From contig NZ_FOWE01000014.1 in NCBI RefSeq assembly GCF_900115395.1, positions 15,700 to 79,699 of the forward strand: 64,000 bases of DNA, read 5' to 3'. The notes under the pieces were generated by a model that was given only the letters and a program-made list of their open reading frames with translations, had not been told where the DNA came from and ran no database searches. This document shows positions 7,331-17,483 of this stretch, in pieces. Position numbers and translations under genes: made by a program. Every line of letters begins with the position of its first letter. Position 1 is the stretch's first letter. Origin of the DNA: Geodermatophilus obscurus. Its GTDB lineage: Bacteria > Actinomycetota > Actinomycetes > Mycobacteriales > Geodermatophilaceae.

Positions 7331-7912
7331 TCAGCCGGGCTGCTCGGCGGCCAGCGCCTCCTCGAGCTTGGCCCGCGCCGCCGCGCGGGCCTCCGGGTCG
7401 GTGCGGTCGGCGTCGTCGTCGAACACGACGGTCCACTCGCGGGCGGGCTGACCGGGCACCCGCCGCGCGACCAGGAGCACCCCTCCCCCGCCGGGCAGCG
7501 GCGACCGGCGGCTGGCCACGACCGTCTGATCCACCCGCCGGCGCACCACGGCCGGCAGCTCACCGGCGTCGGTGAGCGCGTACCGCTCGGCCGGCTCACG
7601 GGCCTGCACCCCGGGCTCGACCTCGGTCAGCGCGGTCACGGTGAACGTCCCGCCGCCGTCGTTGGTCGCCGCCCAGCGCGCCGAGCCCACCTCGTGCCAG
7701 CGCAGCACGTCGACGTCGCCGGCGTCGGCGAGCGGCAGGTCGGCCGGTACCACGCGCAGCCCCTGGCTGGTGGCCACCAGCCAGCCGCGCCCTCGGGAGA
7801 GCTCCCCCCAGGCCAGGACCCGCTCGTCGGGGTCGGCCGAGCCCTGGACGACGGCCCGCACCGGCTCGGGCGGGCGGGCGAACCGGCGGCGCAGCAGCGC
7901 GGCGACCCTCAC
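7331..7912 (-). CDS. conserved hypothetical protein coupled to dnaG
   Basis: 193 residues, soluble. The GTG start overlaps the dnaG stop by four bases (GTGA), so it is translationally coupled to primase. The middle part alternates strands and turns ('RGWLVATSQGLRVVPADLP', 'VDVLRWHEVGSARWAA') and ends in an Ala/Glu helix. This fold pattern is that of small actinobacterial PH-like proteins found next to dnaG. No catalytic motif is visible. The role is unknown; the conserved coupling suggests it is expressed with primase. Confidence 0.65.
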   Translation of the reverse strand: MRVAALLRRRFARPPEPVRAVVQGSADPDERVLAWGELSRGRGWLVATSQGLRVVPADLPLADAGDVDVLRWHEVGSARWAATNDGGGTFTVTALTEVEPGVQAREPAERYALTDAGELPAVVRRRVDQTVVASRRSPLPGGGGVLLVARRVPGQPAREWTVVFDDDADRTDPEARAAARAKLEEALAAEQPG

Positions 7913-10737
7913 TCGCCCAGCCCGCCGATCGCCCGCTTGCGCAGCGAGATGGCCCGCTGCTCCAGCGCCATCAGCCGGGAGAACAGGCGCATGTACTCGT
8001 CGCCCTGCTCGACCGGGTTCATCCGCTGCAGCTTGCCCTTGACCCCCGCCACCTCCCGGTTGACGTGCAGCTCCTCCAGCCGGGCCAGCACCGCCGACAC
8101 GTATCCGGCGTCGGCCTCGCCCACCGAGCGCAGCGGCTCCACCGCCAGCGCGGTCAGCTGGGCACGGGCGCTCTCCCGGTCGCAGTGCGCGGCCACCTCG
8201 TCCAGCCACGCCGGTCCGGTCACCCGCGCGGCGGCCGCTCCCCCGGCCTTCGCTACGGCCGCGGCGACGCCGGCGTGGTCGGGGTCGGTGTAGGCCTCCA
8301 GCGGGACGGCGTCGAACGACGGGCCGGCGATCTCGGGCGCCTGCAGCGCCGCCTTGACCGCCTCGCGCTCGACGGCGACCGCGGCGTCGTCCGGGGTGCG
8401 CTTGGGCGCCCGCGACCGCGACCGCGACGGGCGCCCGTCGTCACCGGTGATCCGGCGGACCCGCTCGAGCACCTCGCCCTCGTCGGTGTCCCCGATGAGG
8501 CCTGCGAGACGGCGGGCGTAGGCCGGGCGCAGCGCGTGGTCCTTGACCTGCGCGAGGAGCGGCGCGGTCTTGTCCAGCGCGGCCACCCGCCCCTCGACGG
8601 TGTCGAGGTCGTACCCGGCCAGCGTGGTGCGCAGGACGAACTCGATCAGCGGCGTCCGCCGTGCCACCAGGTCGCGGACGGCGGCGTCGCCGTGCGCCTG
8701 GCGCAGCTCGCAGGGGTCGCGGCCGTCGGGCTCCACGGCGACGAACGTCTGCGCGACGAAGCGCTGGTCCTCCTTGAACGTCTTCATGGCGGCGGCCTGC
8801 CCGGCGGCGTCGCCGTCGAAGGTGTAGACGACCTCCCCGCGGAACTCGTCCTGGTCCATGAGCAGCCGGCGCAGCACGCCGATGTGCTCGGCGCCGAACG
8901 CGGTGCCGCAGGAGGCCACCGCCGTCGTCACCCCGGCCAGGTGGCAGGCCATCACGTCGGTGTAGCCCTCGACGACGACGGCCTGGTGCCGCTTGGCGAT
9001 GTCGCGCTTGGCCCGCTCGATGCCGTAGAGGACGGTGCTCTTCTTGTACAGCGGCGTCTCGGGGGTGTTGAGGTACTTCGGCCCCGGGTCGTCGTCCATG
9101 AGCTTGCGGGCGCCGAAGCCGATGACGTCGCCGGTGATGTCGCGGATCGGCCAGACCAGCCGGCGGTGGAAGCGGTCGATGAGCGTGCCGCGGGAGGACT
9201 CCTTGGCCAGCCCTGCGGTGACCAGCTCCTCCTGCGTGTAGCCCTTCGCGCGCAGGTGGCGGGTCAGGCCGTCCCACCCGCCGGGGGCGAACCCACAGCT
9301 GAAGTCGACGGCGACCTGCCGGTCGAAGCCGCGGTCGGCGAGGAACTGGCGGGCCGGCGCCGCCTCGGGGCTGCGCAGCTGCTCGGCGTAGAACTCCGCG
9401 GCAGCGGTGTTGGCCGCGACCAGCCGCGCGCGCTGCCCGGCGTGCGCCCGGTCGGGGGCGCCGGTGGGCCGGCCGCCGTCGTCCTCGTACTTCAGGTCGA
9501 TGTTGGCCCGCGCCGCCAGCCGCTCGACGGCCTCGGTGAAGCTCAGGTGGTCGATCTGCTGCACGAAGCCGATGACGTCACCGCCCACGCCGCACCCGAA
9601 GCAGTTGCCCGTGAGGATGTTGTCCTCGAGCGTGAACGCGTGCGTGCCGGGCACCTCGGCGCAGAAGACCTCCTCGACGCGGTCGCTCCACTCGACCGAC
9701 CGGACGACCCAGCGCTTGCGCTCGTACTCCTTGCGGTTCCCGAGGATGCGCTCACGGTGGTGCGTCAGCAGGAAGAAGGACTCGGGCAGCCCCTTCGTCA
9801 TGAACCGGACGTCGTAGATGTCACTCATGAGGCCGTCGATGCCGAGACGGGTCTGCTTGGCCACCCCGTAGGTGCCGATGCCGAGTCGCGTGCACAGCGT
9901 GCGGACGTACTCCAGGTCGTCCACGCGGGCCGAGTTCAGGACCGCGTCGCCGTCGTCGGCGACGCAGCCGTCCGCAGCGAAGTAGCCCGCCAGCCAGCCG
10001 AGCAGGTAGGCAGCGTCCTCGTCGAGGCTCGGCCGCTCCTCTGTGAAGTAGGCCGGCAGTCCGTAGTAGCGGGTCCCTCGTTCGTCGGACCGACTGCGGC
10101 AGCCCTCGAAGAAGCCAGCGAGCTCAGCGTCCTTCTCGCCGTGGAGGACGGCGATCGAACCGGCCCCCGCGCGGGTGCCGTCGCCGTAGACCAGGCCCCG
10201 TGCGATGCCGAACGGAGAGGGCCTCGTGGCCGGGTTCATCACCCGGCTCATCGGGAAGGACGGCGAGAGCTGCTCACCTGGCCGGAGGTCCCTGGTCAGC
10301 TTCTCGCGACGGTCCTGCCGCAGCTTCCCGGACGGCACGAACCAGCGGTGCTCGTCGGTGGCGAAGAGCTCCTTCTCCCGCCCGTTCCTCGTGACGACGA
10401 TCCGCATCAGACGCTGCACGCCGTAGGAGCGGAACGGCGCCTCGACCCACCCCCCATCGCCGTTCAGCACCCGGACGGTCCGTCCAGCGAGCTGGGCGAT
10501 GGGCACGACCCCGTCCTCGGTGAGGACACCGGTCTCGCCCGCGAGGCAGTGGAAGAGGTTCCGCGACGGCGTGACGTGGAAGGACGGCGACTTCTCGTCG
10601 TGGAACGGGCACAGGCCCTTGAGGCTGCCACCCCCGGCGCGCTTGAGCTGCAGGTGCTCGCCGACCACCTCGTCGATCCGGCTGCGCTCGCGCACCAGCG
10701 CGATGTCCGCCGCTCGGATGCGTCCCCGGCCGGCCAT
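7909..10737 (-). CDS. dnaG: DNA primase DnaG, interrupted by an intein
   Basis: Makes RNA primers for replication. The host protein is 627 residues after removal of the insert, normal for DnaG. The N-terminal CHC2 zinc-binding domain has the first ligand pair in '[13 protein letters not shown]' and the second pair in '[13 protein letters not shown]'; these pairs are separated by the intein at 9604-10548. The catalytic core has '[17 protein letters not shown]' (TOPRIM DGD) and '[12 protein letters not shown]'; the C-terminal helicase-binding region follows. The ATG at 10737 has GGAGGGGG upstream; an in-frame ATG 19 codons earlier is rejected. Because the insert splits the zinc site, the primase should depend on protein splicing. 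The downstream gene overlaps its stop. Confidence 0.95.
9604..10548 (-). other. intein with LAGLIDADG homing endonuclease in DnaG
   Basis: A 315-residue in-frame insert after codon 63 of dnaG. It begins with Cys1 ('[13 protein letters not shown]', block A). Block B is 'FATDEHRWF' with Thr64 and His67. Block F is '[12 protein letters not shown]' and the insert ends 'NILTGN' with Asn315, followed by Cys+1 of the host. The penultimate residue is Gly rather than the usual His. Two LAGLIDADG-type motifs, 'GLVYGDGT' and '[13 protein letters not shown]', keep their acidic residues, so the endonuclease may be active. Cys+1 is itself the third zinc ligand of the primase, so splicing chemistry and metal site share one residue. 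Boundaries are exact because removal restores an uninterrupted CHC2 motif. Confidence 0.95.
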
Positions 10738-10844
10738 GGGCCCCCTCCGTCGTGCTGCCACGCGGGACGCCCGCGCGTCCCGCACACCGATCATCCCTCC
10801 CCGGAGGACGGGGGTGGGGAGCAGGAGTCGGCCCGACTGCAGGG

Positions 10845-10887
10845 TCCGGCCGCGAGCCCGCGAGCGGTGGGTGGGAGGGCCCTCCTA
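10845..10887 (-). repeat. dispersed hairpin repeat, copy 1
   Basis: Contains the core CGCGAGCCCGCGAGCGGTGG and GGGAGGGCCCTCC and ends directly at the stop codon of the gene at 10888. The same core occurs at 40524-40583 and 51524-51579. Here it lies just 3' of a minus-strand gene and can fold, so it may act as a terminator. Confidence 0.6.
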
Positions 10888-11391
10888 TCAGCTGCTCCCG
10901 GCCGCGGCGCCGCCGGCGACGGCAGCACCGATCGCGGCACCGTAGGTCCGCCGCTGCAGCACCAGGACCAGCCACAGGAGGAAGACCTGCGCGTCGAGGG
11001 CGAGGTCCTGGCCGCCGGTGAGCGTGGGCCGGGGCGACCAGCTCCCGGTGCTCCCGCTCTCGGCCACCGTCACGTCGCCCGCGGTGAACCGGTAGGTGCC
11101 CCGCCACAGCGAGGCGGGCGCGACGTCGACGACCACGCCGTCGAGGTCGGCCCGCCAGGTGCCCCGCCACGCCGACACCTGCTCGGCCCGGTACCGGGCG
11201 GCGTCCTCGGGGTCGGCGGCCCAGCGGCCCACCAGCGCGCCGCCCCTGCGTCGGCCGAGGACCCACTCGCGCTCACCGACGACGGCGACCGAGCCCTCCT
11301 GCCAGAAGTCCGTCGACCGCAGCCGGGCCACCGGCTCGCCGTCGCGCAGGACGGGGACCTCGCCGGCGCTCATCTTCCCCAGCTCCAGCAC
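10888..11391 (-). CDS. hypothetical protein with hydrophobic C-terminus
   Basis: 167 residues from a GTG with GAGGAAC just upstream; an internal ATG seven codons on ([12 protein letters not shown]) is an alternative. About 110 residues of beta-rich soluble sequence rich in Trp and Arg ('[20 protein letters not shown]', '[19 protein letters not shown]') lead to a hydrophobic C-terminal segment ('[13 protein letters not shown]') and a Gly/Ala tail that may form one membrane helix. The first part resembles lipid-scramblase-like or tubby-like beta folds seen in small actinobacterial proteins, but this is only an impression. It is the middle of a minus-strand run between the YdcF protein and dnaG. 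Confidence 0.55.
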
Positions 11392-11410
11392 TCGTTCCTC
11401 CCGCGGGTCG

Positions 11411-12037
11411 TCAGCCGATGCCCGGCGCCCCGGCGACGCTCTCCCCGGTCACGCGGTAGAGCAGGTAGGCGGCGGTCTCCCTCAGGATGTACCGGAACTG
11501 CGTGGCGCGCGTCTGGACGGCCGGGCCCTGGCGGGTCGGGGAGCTTTCGGCGCTGACCCCGGCGTCCTCGGCCATCCGCTCGGCGCGCATCGCGTGCCAC
11601 GGGTCGGTGACCAGCACGGCGCTGGACCAGCCGCGCTCGCCGTACGCGGCGCCGACGGCGCGCATGCTCTCGAGCGTGTCGACGCCCTCGGGCACCGCCA
11701 GCAGCGACTCCTCGGGCACGCCGGCGTCGCGGAGGTAGGCGTGCCCGGCCTCGGCCTCGGTGAACTGGTCACCGGCGGCCTTCCCCCCGACGGTGACGAC
11801 GACCGGTGCGACGCCGTCCTCCCACAGCGCCAGCGCGTGCTCGAGCCGGGCTTCGAAGATCGACGACGGGACGCCGTTGTACTGCGCCGACCCGAGCACC
11901 ACGATCGCGTCCGACGTCGGCCGGGAGTCCTGCCGCGCCGTCCACCAGATGGCCAGCGCGGTCGAGGCGACGAGCAGCAGGGCGGCGAGGACGGCAGCGC
12001 CGAACACCCGCGCCACCAGAGCCCCTCCCCGTGTCAC
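11411..12037 (-). CDS. YdcF/SanA family (DUF218) membrane-anchored protein
   Basis: 208 residues, GTG start. One N-terminal transmembrane helix (about residues 8-32, 'VFGAAVLAALLLVASTALAI') is followed by the DUF218 domain: 'AIVVLGSAQYNGVPSSIFEAR' with the conserved Gly-Ser/Ala and Arg, 'VVVTVGGKAAGDQFTEAEA', 'DTLESMRAVGAAYGERGW' and 'VTDPWHAMRAERMAED' (the usual S-D-P-x-H-x-x-R block). Family members such as SanA/ElyC act in envelope integrity; the biochemical activity is unclear. The domain is predicted to lie outside the membrane. Confidence 0.82.
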   Translation of the reverse strand: MTRGGALVARVFGAAVLAALLLVASTALAIWWTARQDSRPTSDAIVVLGSAQYNGVPSSIFEARLEHALALWEDGVAPVVVTVGGKAAGDQFTEAEAGHAYLRDAGVPEESLLAVPEGVDTLESMRAVGAAYGERGWSSAVLVTDPWHAMRAERMAEDAGVSAESSPTRQGPAVQTRATQFRYILRETAAYLLYRVTGESVAGAPGIG

Positions 12038-12101
12038 CGGTCATGGATAACACGGGGTCTGCGCCGCCTGTGGCAGCCGGGACCGGTGTGGCGCGGGCCC
12101 G

Positions 12102-14813
12102 TCAGGAGCCGCTGAGCCCCCCGCCCAGCGCCGCCCGCCCGGCCTCCAGGCGGGCGATCGGCACCCGGAACGGCGAGCAGGAGACGTAGTCCAGCCCGAC
12201 CTCGTGGAAGAAGTGCACCGAGTCGGGGTCGCCGCCGTGCTCACCGCAGACGCCGAGCTTGAGGTCCGGCCGGGCGGCGCGGCCGCGCTCCACGCCGATC
12301 TCGACGAGCCGGCCGACGCCGGGCCGGTCCAGCGACTCGAACGGCGAGACGCCGAAGATGCCCTTGTCCAGGTAGGCGTGGAAGAACGCCGCCTCGACGT
12401 CGTCACGGCTGAAACCCCACGTCATCTGGGTGAGGTCGTTGGTGCCGAAGGAGAAGAACTCGGCCGAGCCGGCGATCTGGTCGGCGGTCAGGGCCGCGCG
12501 CGGCACCTCGATCATCGTGCCGATCAGCGCCCGCACGTCGATGCCCTCGTCGGCGCAGACCTGCGCCAGCACCCGCTCGCTCTCCTCGCGGATGGCCTCG
12601 AGCTCCTGCACCGCCCCGACCAGCGGGATCATGATCTCCGGCCGCGGGTCGCCGCCGGCGCGGCGCCGCTCGCAGGCGGCCTCGGCGATCGCGCGCACCT
12701 GCATGGCGAACAGGCCCGGCACCACCAGGCCCAGCCGCACGCCGCGCAGGCCCAGCATCGGGTTCTGCTCGTGCAGCCGCTGGACGGCGGCCAGCAGCCG
12801 CAGGGTCCCCTCGTCGGCGCCGCCCTTGGCCTCGGCGACGGCCACCCGCACCGACAGCTCGGTGAGGTCGGGCAGGAACTCGTGCAGCGGTGGGTCGAGC
12901 AGCCGCACGGTCACCGGCATCCCGTCCATCGCCTCGAAGATCTCGAGGAAGTCCTGCTTCTGCAGCGGCTCCAGGGCGTCGAGCGCGCCCTGCCGCTCGT
13001 CGTCGCCGTCGGCGAGGATCAGCCGCTCGACGAGCTGGCGGCGGTCGCCGAGGAACATGTGCTCGGTCCGGCACAGCCCGATGCCGCGGGCGCCGAAGCG
13101 GCGGGCCCGGGCGGCGTCCTCGGGGGTGTCGGCGTTGGCCCGCACGCCGAGGCGCCGCTGCCCGTCGGCGTGGGTGAGGACGCGGTGCACGCTGCGCACC
13201 AGGTCGTCGGCGTCGGCGGACCCGGGGTCGATCTCCCCCTCGAAGTACCGCACGACGGCGGAGTCCTCGACCGGCACCTCCCCGAGCCACACCCGGCCGG
13301 TGGACCCGTCGATGGAGATGACGTCGCCCTCGGCCACGACGGCGCCGTCGGGCGCGGTGAACCGCCTGTTCTTGGTGTCGACCTGCAGCTCCTCGGCGCC
13401 GCACACGCAGGTCTTGCCCATCCCCCGGGCGACGACGGCGGCGTGCGAGGTCTTGCCGCCGCGGCTGGTGAGCACGCCCTGGGCGGCGATCATCCCGGAG
13501 AGGTCGTCGGGGTTGGTCTCCCGGCGGACGAGGACGACCCGCTCCCCGCGGTCGGCCCACCGGACGGCCTCCTCGGAGGAGAACACCGCCCGGCCGACGG
13601 CGGCGCCCGGCGAGGCGTTCATGCCCTGGGTGAGCTGCCGGGCGTCCCCGGAGGAGGTGAACCGCGGGAACATCAGCTGCGCGAGCTGGTCGCCGCTGAC
13701 CCGCCGCACCGCCTCGTCCATGTCGATGAGGCCCTCGTCGACCAGCTGGGTGGCGATGACGAACGCCGCGGCGGCGGTCCGCTTGCCCACCCGGGTCTGC
13801 AGCATCCACAGCTTGCCGCGCTCGACGGTGAACTCGATGTCGCACAGGTCGCGGTAGTGCGACTCCAGCCGCGCCATCGTCTCCACCAGCTCGTCGTAGA
13901 CGGCCGCGTCGATGCGCTGCAGGTCGGTGAGCGGCACGGTGTTGCGGATGCCGGCGACGACGTCCTCGCCCTGCGCGTTCTGCAGGTAGTCGCCGTACAC
14001 GCCCTGCGCGCCGCTGCCGGGGTCGCGGGTGAACGCGACGCCGGTGCCGGAGTCCGCACCCAGGTTGCCGAACACCATCGAGCAGACGTTGACGGCGGTG
14101 CCGGCGTCGCCGGGGATGCGCTCGCGGCGGCGGTAGAGGATCGCGCGCGGGGAGTTCCAGGAGTCGAAGACGGCGTTGATCGCCAGGTCCATCTGCTCGC
14201 GCGGGTCCTGCGGGAAGTCGCGGCCGGTGGAGTCGCGGACGATGGCCTTGAACCGGTCGACGACGTCGCGCAGGTGGTCGGCGTCGAGGTCGAGGTCGAG
14301 GTCGGTGCCCTGCTCGCGCTTGGCCTCGTCGAGGGCGTCCTCGAAGGCCTCGCCGTCGATGTCGAGCACGGTCTTGCCGAACATCTGGATGAGCCGGCGG
14401 TAGGAGTCCCAGGCGAAGCGGTCGCTGCCGGACTGCGCGGCCAGGCCCTGCACGGAGTCGTCGTTGAGGCCGACGTTGAGGACGGTCTCCATCATCCCGG
14501 GCATCGACGCAGCGGCGCCGGAGCGCACCGACACCAGCAGCGGGTCGCCCGGGTCCCCGAGCATCTTGCCCATCGCCTTCTCCAGCGCCGTGAGGTGCTC
14601 GGTCACCTGGTCGGCGAGGTCGGGCGGGGTGGTGCCGTGCTCGAGGTAGTAGCGGCAGGCGTCGGTGGTGATCGTGAAGCCCGGCGGGACCGGCAGCCCC
14701 AGGTTGGTCATCTCGGCGAGGTTGGCCCCCTTGCCCCCGAGCAGGTCCTTCTGGTGCCTGCTGCCCTCGCTGAAGTCGTACACCCACGTGGTCGTGCCAT
14801 CGACGCTGCCCAC
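12102..14813 (-). CDS. ppdK: pyruvate, phosphate dikinase
   Basis: Interconverts pyruvate + ATP + Pi and PEP + AMP + PPi. 903 residues, full length. The N-terminal ATP-grasp domain starts 'KDLLGGKGANLAEMTNLGLP'. The central phospho-His domain has His457 in 'GGKTSHAAVVARGMGKT'. The C-terminal TIM barrel has 'GLCRTEHMF', 'FSFGTNDLTQMTWGFSR' and the catalytic Cys in 'LGVCGEHGGDP'. The GTG start at 14813 has GGAGGTG eight bases upstream; the longer frame upstream is Ser/Arg-rich and rejected. It lies next to the dha operon, whose PTS fusion consumes PEP, so PEP supply may link the two; this is inference. Confidence 0.95.
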   Translation of the reverse strand: MGSVDGTTTWVYDFSEGSRHQKDLLGGKGANLAEMTNLGLPVPPGFTITTDACRYYLEHGTTPPDLADQVTEHLTALEKAMGKMLGDPGDPLLVSVRSGAAASMPGMMETVLNVGLNDDSVQGLAAQSGSDRFAWDSYRRLIQMFGKTVLDIDGEAFEDALDEAKREQGTDLDLDLDADHLRDVVDRFKAIVRDSTGRDFPQDPREQMDLAINAVFDSWNSPRAILYRRRERIPGDAGTAVNVCSMVFGNLGADSGTGVAFTRDPGSGAQGVYGDYLQNAQGEDVVAGIRNTVPLTDLQRIDAAVYDELVETMARLESHYRDLCDIEFTVERGKLWMLQTRVGKRTAAAAFVIATQLVDEGLIDMDEAVRRVSGDQLAQLMFPRFTSSGDARQLTQGMNASPGAAVGRAVFSSEEAVRWADRGERVVLVRRETNPDDLSGMIAAQGVLTSRGGKTSHAAVVARGMGKTCVCGAEELQVDTKNRRFTAPDGAVVAEGDVISIDGSTGRVWLGEVPVEDSAVVRYFEGEIDPGSADADDLVRSVHRVLTHADGQRRLGVRANADTPEDAARARRFGARGIGLCRTEHMFLGDRRQLVERLILADGDDERQGALDALEPLQKQDFLEIFEAMDGMPVTVRLLDPPLHEFLPDLTELSVRVAVAEAKGGADEGTLRLLAAVQRLHEQNPMLGLRGVRLGLVVPGLFAMQVRAIAEAACERRRAGGDPRPEIMIPLVGAVQELEAIREESERVLAQVCADEGIDVRALIGTMIEVPRAALTADQIAGSAEFFSFGTNDLTQMTWGFSRDDVEAAFFHAYLDKGIFGVSPFESLDRPGVGRLVEIGVERGRAARPDLKLGVCGEHGGDPDSVHFFHEVGLDYVSCSPFRVPIARLEAGRAALGGGLSGS

Positions 14814-14921
14814 CGCGCACCTCCGTGCTCGTCCGCTGACCGGTCTCCGCCCACCGGGGGACGGCGCCGGGAACCCCCGAGACGCCTCCGGTGGGTCCGC
14901 TCCGACCACGGCGGTGTGCGC

Positions 14922-14938
14922 AGACGTCCAAGACGTCT
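14922..14938. promoter_or_regulatory. inverted repeat upstream of ppdK
   Basis: AGACGTC-CAA-GACGTCT, perfect 7-bp arms, about 110 bases before the ppdK start. Size and position fit an operator for a dimeric regulator. No regulator is known to me for this motif. Confidence 0.35.
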
Positions 14939-15017
14939 TCTCGGGGCTGGACGAGCATCGTGGCGCACCGGGCGGGGACACGCCAGACCACGTCCGGAGG
15001 ACACGGGGTGACGCGGC

Positions 15018-17483
15018 TCACGCCGACGGCGGGGCGTCCTGCGCGGCGCGGACCAGCGCGCGGACCTCCGCGGCGCCGGTCGCGGCCAGGCACCGCCGCG
15101 CCAGCTCGACGCACGCGCCGGAGTCGAGCCGCCGGACGGCGGCCTTCGTGCCGGCCACCGCCGACGGGGCGACGCTGAGCTCCTGCACGCCGAGGCCGAC
15201 CAGGACGGGGACGGCCAGCGGGTCGGCGGCGACCTCGCCGCACACCGACACCGTCGCCCGGCCGGCCGCGCGGGACGCCGTCTCGCCGACCAGGCGCAGC
15301 ACGGCCGGGTCGAGCGGGTCGGCCAGGGCGGCCAGGGCGGGGTGCCCGCGCTCGGCGGCCAGCGTGTACTGGGTGAGGTCGTTGGTGCCGATGCTCAGGA
15401 AGTCGACGTGGGGCAGGAACGCCTCGACGTTCAGGGCGACCGCCGGCACCTCGACCATCACGCCCACCCGCAGCCCGGCCGGCACCGGACCGGGGGCGGC
15501 GGCCTCGGTGAGCAGCCGGCGCACCGCGAGGACCTCCTCGACGACGGAGACCATCGGGACCATGACCCGCACCGGCCCGCGCGCCGCGGCGCGGCAGACG
15601 GCGGCCAGCTGGGTCCTCAGCAGGTCGGGCCGGGTGAGCGAGAGGCGCACGCCGCGGACGCCGAGGAACGGGTTGGCCTCCGGCGGCTGCGGGAGGTAGC
15701 GCAGCGGCTTGTCCCCTCCGACGTCGAGCGTGCGGATGGTCACCGGGCGTCCGGCGAAGGCGTCGAGCACCGCCAGGTACTCGCGCTCCTGCTCCTCGGC
15801 CGTCGGGGGCCGGTCCCGGTCGAGGAAGAGGATCTCGGTGCGCACGAGGCCCGCGCCGTCGGCACCGGCCGTGGCGGCCGCCCGGGCGTCGGCGACCGAG
15901 CCGACGTTGGCGCCCACCACCACGCGCCGGCCGTCGCGGGTGACCGCCTCGCGGGGCGCCTCGGCGGCGTCCCGGGCGCGCTCGTCGGCCAGCTCCCGCT
16001 GCCGGGTGCGGTAGCCCGCCACGACGCCGGTCGGGGGGTCGACGAGGACGCGCCCGGCGGTGCCGTCGACCACCAGCGGCGTGCCGTCGGGGACGTCGAG
16101 GAGGCCGGCACCGGCGGCGACGACGGCCGGGATGCCGAGGGAGCGCACCAGGATCGCGGCGTGCGAGGTGGGGCTGCCCCCGGCGAGCGCGACGCCGAGC
16201 ACCCGCCCGGGGTCGAGCCCGCCGGCCTGCGCGGGCGTGAGGTCGTCGGCGAGCAGCACCCCGTCGACGTCGACGGCCTGCACCGGGGCCTCCCCCGCGA
16301 GGGCGCGCAGCACCTGGTCGCCCACCGCGCGCACGTCCGCGGCGCGGGCGCGCAGGTAGGGGTCGGGCAGGGCCGCCCACTGCGCCTCCAGCGCCGAGAC
16401 GGCCCGCGCCCAGGCGCCGGCCGCGGACACCCCCGCCTCGATGCCCGTCCTGGCCGCGCCGGTGAGCTCGGCGTCGTCGAGCAGGAGCAGGTGCGCCTCG
16501 AAGACGCCGGCCTGCCCGGGGGCGGTGCGGTCGCGGGTCCGCTCGACGTCCCGCCGCACGGCGGCGAGCGCGTCGGTCAGCCGGCGCTCCTCCGCCTCCG
16601 GCGGACCGGCGGGGCGCTCGTCGACCCGGACGGGGGCGGTCGTCAGGCGCACGGCGGGGCCGACCGCGACGCCGGGTGAGGTCGCCACCGGTCCCGCGGA
16701 GGGCGTCGTCGCGGACTCATCCGCCGCGGGCCCGGGGACGGCGACCTCGTCGAAGGACCGGGCCGCCAGGGCGAGCACCCCGTCCACGGCCGCGCGGGCC
16801 TCGCGGCCGGTCGCCGAGACCTCGACCTCGTGGCCGCGCAGCGCGCCGAGGGTGGCGACCCGGCTGAGGCTGCCGGCCGGGACGGGTCCGGCGCCGGTGG
16901 TCAGGTTGCGCAGCGCGACGTCGGCGTCGCGCCGGCGCACCTCGGCGACCAGCCGGGCCGCGGGGCGGGCGTGCAGGCCGTGGGGGTTCGCGACCACGAA
17001 GGAGCCGGTCAGGTGCCCCTCCGCCGCGGGCGCCGGCTCCTCCGCCGGGACGGTGTCGAGCTGCGTGTCCTTGGCGAGCAGGGCGGCCCGGGCCTCCGCG
17101 GCGACCTCCGCGCGGTCGGCCCCGCCGGCGGCGACGACCGAGGCCACCAGCAGCCCCTCCACCAACGGTGCCGGGGAGAGCACCACCCGGTCGCGCACCT
17201 CGTCGGGCAGCAGCTCCAGCGCCATCTCGGCACTCAGCAGCGCGCTGCCCACGTCCATGAGCACCACGACGCCGTCGCCGTCGTCCACCTCCTCCACCGC
17301 GGCGGCGATCCGCACGGCGTCGGTGCCGAAGGTCGTCTCGTCCAGTCCGGCGGCCACCGCGATGCGCGCGTCCCGACCGGAGACCATCTCCGCGGCCAGC
17401 CCGACCGCGGCCTCGGCCAGCGCCCGGCTGTGCGACACCACGACGATCCCGACGCGGGCACCGGCGGCGCCCGTGTCGGTCAC
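15018..17483 (-). CDS. dhaM: DhaM-HPr-Enzyme I fusion (PTS phosphotransfer for dihydroxyacetone kinase)
   Basis: 821 residues combining three phosphocarriers. Residues 1-140 are the DhaM EIIA-Man-like domain with His18 ('VGIVVVSHSRALAEAAVGL'). Residues about 158-245 are HPr with His171 ('NPHGLHARPAARLVAEV'). Residues 265-821 are Enzyme I with His441 ('GGSPTSHAAILVRSLGIP'), 'DVGGDKPLRYLPQP', 'FLSIGTNDLTQY' and Cys in 'VSVCGEVAADP'. It takes the phosphate of PEP and passes it to ADP bound on DhaL. The GTG start overlaps the dhaL stop (GTGA). The fusion makes the kinase independent of the general PTS. The EI C-terminal PEP-binding domain looks complete. Confidence 0.93.
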   Translation of the reverse strand: MTDTGAAGARVGIVVVSHSRALAEAAVGLAAEMVSGRDARIAVAAGLDETTFGTDAVRIAAAVEEVDDGDGVVVLMDVGSALLSAEMALELLPDEVRDRVVLSPAPLVEGLLVASVVAAGGADRAEVAAEARAALLAKDTQLDTVPAEEPAPAAEGHLTGSFVVANPHGLHARPAARLVAEVRRRDADVALRNLTTGAGPVPAGSLSRVATLGALRGHEVEVSATGREARAAVDGVLALAARSFDEVAVPGPAADESATTPSAGPVATSPGVAVGPAVRLTTAPVRVDERPAGPPEAEERRLTDALAAVRRDVERTRDRTAPGQAGVFEAHLLLLDDAELTGAARTGIEAGVSAAGAWARAVSALEAQWAALPDPYLRARAADVRAVGDQVLRALAGEAPVQAVDVDGVLLADDLTPAQAGGLDPGRVLGVALAGGSPTSHAAILVRSLGIPAVVAAGAGLLDVPDGTPLVVDGTAGRVLVDPPTGVVAGYRTRQRELADERARDAAEAPREAVTRDGRRVVVGANVGSVADARAAATAGADGAGLVRTEILFLDRDRPPTAEEQEREYLAVLDAFAGRPVTIRTLDVGGDKPLRYLPQPPEANPFLGVRGVRLSLTRPDLLRTQLAAVCRAAARGPVRVMVPMVSVVEEVLAVRRLLTEAAAPGPVPAGLRVGVMVEVPAVALNVEAFLPHVDFLSIGTNDLTQYTLAAERGHPALAALADPLDPAVLRLVGETASRAAGRATVSVCGEVAADPLAVPVLVGLGVQELSVAPSAVAGTKAAVRRLDSGACVELARRCLAATGAAEVRALVRAAQDAPPSA

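Follow-up and report, generated by a model that had tools for sequence, protein, structure and literature searches.

What is the insert that splits the primase gene dnaG of Geodermatophilus obscurus at the codon of a zinc ligand, and does its position place primase under metal or redox control, as a first, sequence-only reading of this DNA had proposed, or does it reflect the target choice of a mobile element? The gene lies on the minus strand of a 64,000-nucleotide stretch (positions 15,700 to 79,699 of contig NZ_FOWE01000014.1, assembly GCF_900115395.1), here called the window, in whose own numbering all coordinates are given. We find that the insert is very probably a LAGLIDADG homing intein aimed at the stretch of DnaG-type primase genes that codes for the CHC2 zinc ribbon, and that its distribution needs homing alone, without a regulatory role. 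The insert, the empty alleles in relatives, the common insertion site, the motifs, the scattered occupancy and the purifying selection can all be read directly from the sequences compared. The host gene and the insert are laid out as follows:

7909-10794, minus strand: dnaG open frame, 961 aa, interrupted by the intein (Pfam/NCBIfam domains).
10549-10737, minus strand: N-extein, 63 residues, first half of the CHC2 zinc ribbon.
9604-10548, minus strand: intein, 315 residues, in frame, from Cys1 to a terminal Gly-Asn.
7912-9603, minus strand: C-extein, second half of the zinc ribbon, catalytic core, Toprim and DnaB-binding domain.

The true start of dnaG is probably at 10737 (MAGRGRI, common to the genus relatives). 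The host is a DnaG primase with CHC2 zinc ribbon, catalytic core, Toprim and DnaB-binding regions: Pfam and NCBIfam domains flank the insert on both sides (Zn_ribbon_DnaG in two stretches, DNAG_N, Toprim and two DnaB-binding domains), and TIGR01391 (dnaG) matches the frame with 371.8 bits. Used as a query with a threshold of E 0.001, the C-extein matches the window genome once, and the spliced product is therefore presumably essential.

Within this gene, 315 codons stand between ...SRNLFH and CFGCG.... Public intein models recognize them weakly, below cut-off (Pfam Intein_splicing, E 0.06; TIGR01445, 0.026; TIGR01443, 0.044; in bits against the curated cut-off, PF14890 13.6/35.8, TIGR01443 14.1/15.6 and TIGR01445 15.5/24.5), which could be taken to favor a normal, lineage-specific DnaG domain and no intein. 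Orthologous genes make that reading almost untenable. Among 26 Geodermatophilus genomes, the window genome included, a C-extein search found dnaG in every one; the gene is uninterrupted at the exact codon in 17 ([FYW]HCFGCG, for example NLFHCFGCG or GLYHCFGCG), and the insert stands at exactly this point in the other nine, four of which carry full-length inteins of 315 residues and five, of 163-169 (three) or 203-209 residues (two), lack the endonuclease. Because empty and occupied genes share precisely the same point, the insert is neither a chance open frame, a candidate we rejected, nor a normal DnaG domain, the outcome that the sequence-only reading had named as refuting an intein. In-frame insertion precisely absent from orthologues is joined on this side by the intein blocks, the fold match and the finding that a relaxase and a prophage primase also carry this insert, all described below. 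The sub-threshold scores are a matter of divergence, and passing such models is not a defining feature of an intein.

Two details of the genus set deserve mention. Genome G022, whose dnaG is empty, has a weak match elsewhere (E 4.6e-4). In two endonuclease-free copies (L010 and L011, from G003 and G001, of 209 and 203 residues) the endonuclease is replaced by a common stretch, STRRAVA(T/A)LLGRK-AEVARWVPD, which is longer than the other endonuclease-free linkers.

An AlphaFold2 model of the precursor (frame residues 20-440; mean predicted local distance difference test score, pLDDT, 86.1) is predicted to contain a HINT fold: Foldseek matches it to NpuDnaB (4o1r, E 1.5e-4, template modeling score TMt 0.70) and to PI-SceI and VMA inteins, and also to the intein-endonucleases 7qsu (E 1e-12), 1ef0 (E 3e-10) and 1dq3. 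Taken in ten-residue blocks, confidence is 81-97 across the intein, 56-69 in residues 31-60, which hold zinc ligands 1 and 2, and 58 in residues 381-390, after the +1 Cys. A model of an endonuclease-free precursor reached a mean pLDDT of 60, and no claim made here rests on it.

The search for the same insertion point elsewhere, which the sequence-only reading had suggested, was productive. We scanned 84,980 species with a pattern that demanded, besides Cys1 and the spacing of the zinc ribbon, NTN at codon 2, Gly at codon 4 and Thr or Ser at codon 6, and found 86 occupied sites, a lower bound, comprising 74 in Actinomycetota, 11 in Pseudomonadota and one under an odd Bacillus label. After removal of 14 sites whose frame ended before the end of the intein was reached, 72 complete copies remain, and to these the conservation counts below refer, with the proviso that the scan cannot show Cys1 to be invariant. 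The oddly labelled site (L131, Bacillus sp. AZ43, UNVERIFIED_ORG) has a dnaG and an intein that are both Geodermatophilaceae-like, and the record is probably mislabelled.

The position of the junction within the zinc ribbon is defined by three host features:

10600-10611, minus strand: Cys-Pro-Phe-His, zinc ligands 1 and 2; invariant in alignment A3 (58 rows) and placed by the 1d0q alignment.
9601-9603, minus strand: +1 Cys of the C-extein, presumptive splicing nucleophile and zinc ligand 3; Cys in 72/72 complete scan copies.
9592-9594, minus strand: Cys +4, zinc ligand 4; Cys in 72/72 complete scan copies.

The insert starts with Cys and ends with Asn, and the next host residue is Cys, with codon coordinates exactly as previously read. 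The N-extein aligns with the solved primase 1d0q such that Phe62 falls on Phe59, and one His lies between this Phe and the junction Cys, which would correspond to residue 61 of the 1d0q chain provided that no gap follows Phe59. We take the zinc ligands of 1d0q to be Cys40, His43, Cys61 and Cys64, with Cys61 as the third. The alignment and the anatomy uphold the earlier claims that the intein is placed exactly at the third zinc ligand and that the host Cys doubles as +1 splicing nucleophile and ligand, and CPFH precedes the insert in all 72 copies. A point overlooked by the sequence-only reading is that Cys1 of the intein follows NLFH and so stands, in the precursor sequence, where zinc ligand 3 would be. 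Its further statement that no zinc site can form before splicing stands as far as anatomy goes, the ligands being divided two and two by 315 residues, and goes no further on the precursor model, whose N-terminal part superposes on 1d0q (51 columns, 0.9 Å) despite low pLDDT and which, being metal-free, neither proves nor excludes such a site.

How would this element splice? The relevant intein features are these:

10546-10548, minus strand: Cys1, block A:1, candidate first nucleophile; Cys in 72/72 complete scan copies (the scan pattern demanded Cys).
10342-10359, minus strand: block B, T64-x-x-H67-x-W69, the class 1 TxxH with the class 3 Trp (B:12); T, H and W invariant in A2 (35 rows).
10177-10209, minus strand: first LAGLIDADG helix, acid D123 (sequence, alignment A2 and scan copies).
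9967-9999, minus strand: second LAGLIDADG helix, acid D193 (sequence, alignment A2 and scan copies).
9661-9663, minus strand: Cys296, block F:4, the class 3 branch-point position as defined in PMC5050341 and PMC3196547; 72/72 complete scan copies.
9604-9612, minus strand: Thr313-Gly314-Asn315, block G:5-G:7, giving the triad Thr, the penultimate Gly and the presumed cyclizing Asn (codon 9604-9606); 72/72.

Blocks A, B, F and G are present with a nucleophile, the B:10 His, the C-terminal Asn and the +1 Cys, and Cys1, T64, H67, W69, Cys296 and T313-G314-N315 are all invariant both in an alignment of the nine genus copies (A1) and in one of 35 diverse long copies (A2). The block F His is present in the window copy and absent in three of the 72 scan copies; TxxHxW is found in 72/72, with L086, L100 and L102 differing in the lack of a preceding Ala. 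The window copy has the attributes of class 1, Cys at A:1 and TxxH in block B. It also has, as do all 72 complete copies, the full Trp-Cys-Thr triad that the sequence-only reading missed and that defines class 3 as Trp B:12, Cys F:4 and Thr G:5 (PMC5050341, PMC3196547 and PMC7891396). We do not file it as class 3, in which the A:1 nucleophile is missing, because Cys1 is present.

Initiation by a class 3 route, in which Cys296 attacks first and Cys1 is dispensable, strikes us as conceivable but doubtful. It would account for the complete triad in 72/72 copies and for a relative, L220, that is 26% identical to the window copy and has the triad with Pro replacing Cys1. Against it, Cys1 and the class 1 TxxH are kept, whereas the class 3 intein DnaBi1 of mycobacterial DnaB has DxxH at this position, where Thr goes together with the first residue of class 1 (PMC6195587); Cys at F:4 has also been noted in class 1 inteins (PMC3196547); and the scan copies had been selected for Cys1. 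Because TxxH is retained where DnaBi1 has DxxH, we think that Cys1 probably starts the reaction. The DnaG intein profiles matched no solved class 3 structure, and when the class 3 mycobacterial DnaB inteins were sought with PF14890 in 18 genomes, the ends that were readable did not have a class 3 make-up. Mixtures of this kind have reportedly been seen before: Tori and Perler, in 2011, are said to have described inteins that combine a class 1 first residue with the class 3 triad, as the DnaG intein does, in a Nocardioides JS614 TOPRIM protein and in Catera Gp206, and Ser1 of the latter is reportedly dispensable.

The sequence-only reading had also flagged a penultimate Gly in place of His, and Gly indeed occupies this position in 72/72 complete copies. 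Given this constancy, and since a phage recombination directionality factor (RDF) intein with penultimate Gly splices completely and is slowed by a Gly-to-His change (PMC5050341), the residue is no sign of impairment.

Both LAGLIDADG acids of the window copy, D123 and D193, are kept, as first read, one in each of the two helices, and LAGLIDADG_3 (PF14528) scores 22.8 bits against a cut-off of 22.5. Across the 72 complete scan copies, 57 are long with both Asp, seven are long without both (five with a non-acid, one with Glu and one read by eye as Gly) and eight have no endonuclease. The ratio of nonsynonymous to synonymous substitution rates (dN/dS) of the endonuclease is 0.09-0.17 in the six pairs formed by the four full-length genus copies, compared with 0.02-0.16 for the splicing parts, which speaks of long maintenance and is no proof of present activity. 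The suggestion that the element may still home thus stands on the retained acids and on purifying selection, and dN/dS alone does not carry it to activity at present. That drift has fixed a decayed, no longer mobile relic in this strain would fit the loss of an acid in genome G010 and of the whole endonuclease domain in several others; for the window copy, with both acids and low endonuclease dN/dS against G024 (0.09) and G007 (0.10), we consider it improbable. Occupancy is scattered: on the extein tree of the 26 dnaG genes it requires at least eight changes, five or more of them forced by well-supported branches, and it shows no clustering beyond that of shuffled labels, 372 of 500 shuffles being as low.

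Beyond the genus, a family profile search gave matches in 31 of 112 genomes, 30 of them with the dnaG site; G110 and G096 carry a related intein in RtcB. An even draw from the phylum (396 genomes) yielded 21 genomes with a profile match, the window genome included, and matches better than 1e-11 came only from the window, G504 (8e-107) and G246 (2e-78, in a deaminase-like protein); a usable frame was available for 10 of the 20 other matching genomes, and among these only G504 has the dnaG site. A draw from the order (397 genomes) gave 31 matches at 1e-20, of which 24 lie within the family, and three of the other seven, when read, proved to be two RtcB inteins and L220. The deaminase-like protein contains a related intein (L168, G246:C274) at NC/IAIHAEANA, adjoining the HAE motif and without the G:5 Thr. 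L220 (G775:C1) is a short frame with an intein-like element that has Trp-Cys-Thr and Pro for Cys1.

Identities between the window and other copies of the dnaG site differ sharply with taxonomic distance. For nine of the 11 Pseudomonadota copies (L160 and L129 left out; one of the nine is a prophage primase), the intein is 45-52% and the C-extein 26-41% identical, the intein being the more similar part in 9/9; for 37 copies from other Actinomycetota families the values are 46-62% and 57-68%, with the intein higher in 3/37. A tree of 67 long inteins, built without copies under 280 residues, sets the Pseudomonadota and plasmid copies apart with a Shimodaira-Hasegawa-like approximate likelihood ratio test (SH-aLRT) value of 100. 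The copies from two Geodermatophilaceae metagenome-assembled genomes (L092 and L150) fall outside the family clade, even though the L150 and window exteins are 80% identical. The intein of Glycomyces fuscus TRM 49117 (L152) nests among those of Nocardiopsis, which may be due to transfer or to a misnamed strain.

A plasmid and a prophage also have the element. In plasmid pSR-4 of Skermanella rosea, a TrwC relaxase/helicase protein includes a CHC2 domain that is interrupted by the intein at this same ligand, and genes for VirB10, VirB11 and a coupling protein lie no more than 6 kb away. A Sphingobium prophage primase (CHC2, Toprim_3) has it at the same site, adjoining genes for a CI-like repressor, an anti-repressor and an integrase. 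These two were the sole plasmid in the search of plasmid records and the one prophage in the search of viral contigs; L120, one of the 86 scan sites, and L193 are probably the same prophage element. In phage records, tblastn found no match of at least 60% identity besides the query record among the matches listed (40 of 125, 6 of 6, 40 of 220 and 1 of 1), most of which were annotated as ribonucleotide reductase. We regard pSR-4 and the Sphingobium prophage as plausible carriers, unproven as donors.

Why this codon? In a comparison of 19 diverse primase genes, all occupied, over the first 312 extein codons and leaving aside L134, which has a stop upstream, the 24-nt window at the junction ranks 50th of 913 in conservation. 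A conserved target with a ready +1 Cys explains the site without regulation. In the cycle that we propose, the HINT domain would excise itself after translation, with Cys1 most likely initiating in class 1 fashion, aided by T64xxH67 and by Cys296 at F:4; the N-extein would be handed to the host +1 Cys as Asn315 cyclizes, and the ligated primase would regain its third zinc ligand and fold its zinc ribbon. The two-helix LAGLIDADG domain would cut intein-free dnaG at the same codons, and repair would copy the element in. Since the target DNA is well conserved and supplies the Cys, the element could also enter the primases of plasmids and prophages and pass from one phylum to another. Scattered occupancy, purifying selection and the stages of decay fit such a cycle, and scattered occupancy, empty alleles and decaying endonucleases are expected of a homing parasite without a regulatory role.

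Several observations weigh against this reading. The intein tree mostly follows host families within Actinomycetota. Endonuclease dN/dS is equally low (0.12-0.13) in three pairs that include the acid-lost G010. A comparison of synonymous divergence (dS) reveals no recent homing within the genus: intein dS exceeds extein dS in 36/36 genus pairs, with the two nearly equal for G024 and G007 (0.28 and 0.27). Pairs that involve endonuclease-free copies depend in part on linkers that align poorly, and codon constraint may lower the extein dS. The conservation of the junction depends on the span considered, the 30-nt window ranking only 140th of 907. Plasmid pSR-4 is typed as non-mobilizable in PLSDB. 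The sequence does not settle the choice between class 1 and class 3 initiation, and splicing and cutting are inferred, as is any effect on primase supply. On balance, we hold that the DnaG intein is most probably able to splice and mobile.

Could the site nevertheless make the intein a conditional switch, with zinc or oxidant stalling splicing at the active-site cysteines, unspliced DnaG accumulating and replication pausing, so that the element is kept partly for this purpose? Such control and homing are not mutually exclusive. In 66 of 75 parsed inteins, Cys1 and the F:4 Cys are the sole cysteines when the first 95 residues and the last 40 are considered, and seven aligned endonuclease-free copies retain the splicing motifs; an essential gene must, however, retain those motifs anyway. 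By analogy, zinc bound to the F:4 Cys of Mycobacterium smegmatis DnaBi1 blocks splicing (PMC7360933) and peroxide joins that Cys in a Cys48-Cys118 disulfide (PMC6195587), but no counterpart of DnaBi1 Cys48 was found in the DnaG intein. Moreover, 17 of the 26 genus genomes have no intein, its presence is scattered, and the open-access literature searched yielded no assay of a DnaG intein. The analogy leaves metal or redox control of primase plausible in principle, and we judge it unlikely that the intein acts as such a switch. A bolder combination is a long shot: DnaG inteins would represent a lineage with both starters, near the ancestral stock of class 3 that lost Cys1, and in the precursor Cys43 and His46 (MAGRG numbering) together with Cys1, in the place of ligand 3, and Cys296 would hold zinc, so that the metal required by the mature primase would gate its maturation.

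A 1163-codon frame antisense to dnaG and its neighbor (8065-11556, plus strand) looks like a high-GC frame artefact, and upstream, at 10888-14981 on the minus strand, lie a 167-aa frame without a Pfam match, a DUF218 protein and pyruvate phosphate dikinase. Elsewhere in the window genome (G000:C20:60963-62210; L001 and L002), a second intein reads as interrupting the replicative helicase DnaB (RESGC/LPAST..., ...VVHN/S), so that both primosome genes are interrupted.

The element is of a known kind; what is notable is the mixture of Cys1 with the triad and the common site in plasmid and prophage primases. Among its closest known parallels is DnaBi1, which likewise resides in a replisome protein, has the Trp-Cys-Thr triad with an F:4 Cys, and is inhibited by zinc and oxidant (PMC7360933, PMC6195587), but which lacks Cys1, has DxxH and is located in the helicase ATPase site; the related MchDnaB1 has Ser at +1, where DnaG has Cys (PMC7664689). 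The mycobacteriophage RDF intein, compared by description, shares class 1 make-up and penultimate Gly and adjoins a conserved motif, that of a metallophosphoesterase domain (PMC5050341), in an unlike host.

RtcB inteins of Actinomycetota (L074, L075, L221 and L222) are found by the same profiles and have Cys1, the triad and a +1 Cys, in NC/HHN; they differ in their RNA ligase host and target DNA, and L074 and L222 have a penultimate Arg. We take this +1 Cys to be a metal-ligand Cys of RtcB, which would make it a second metal-Cys site for the lineage. The ribonucleotide reductase intein of Thermobifida phage P318 is 34% identical over 315 residues and has Cys1, Trp, Cys, Thr and +1 Cys, but sits in another enzyme and ends in Gln, not Asn; the phage reductase inteins L077 and L078 are without the Trp, and an intein of an unannotated phage scaffold has the same mixture of Cys1 and triad. 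DnaG appears in a review's table of intein hosts (PMC5874633). We found no description of this DnaG site in open-access full texts, a search outside which most subscription papers lie, including the main intein survey, and the absence of the site from print is not established.

Together, these findings give the genus Geodermatophilus a natural series of full, acid-lost, endonuclease-free and empty alleles at one essential codon pair. Because chromosomes, a plasmid and a prophage all carry the element, a single system allows tests of homing, of the vehicle and of the cost to fitness. Inteins in which the initiating residues of class 1 and class 3 occur together are useful for the question of how class 3 arose, and the DnaG intein offers a clear test case for zinc gating where the product of the gated protein is a zinc site in its own right.

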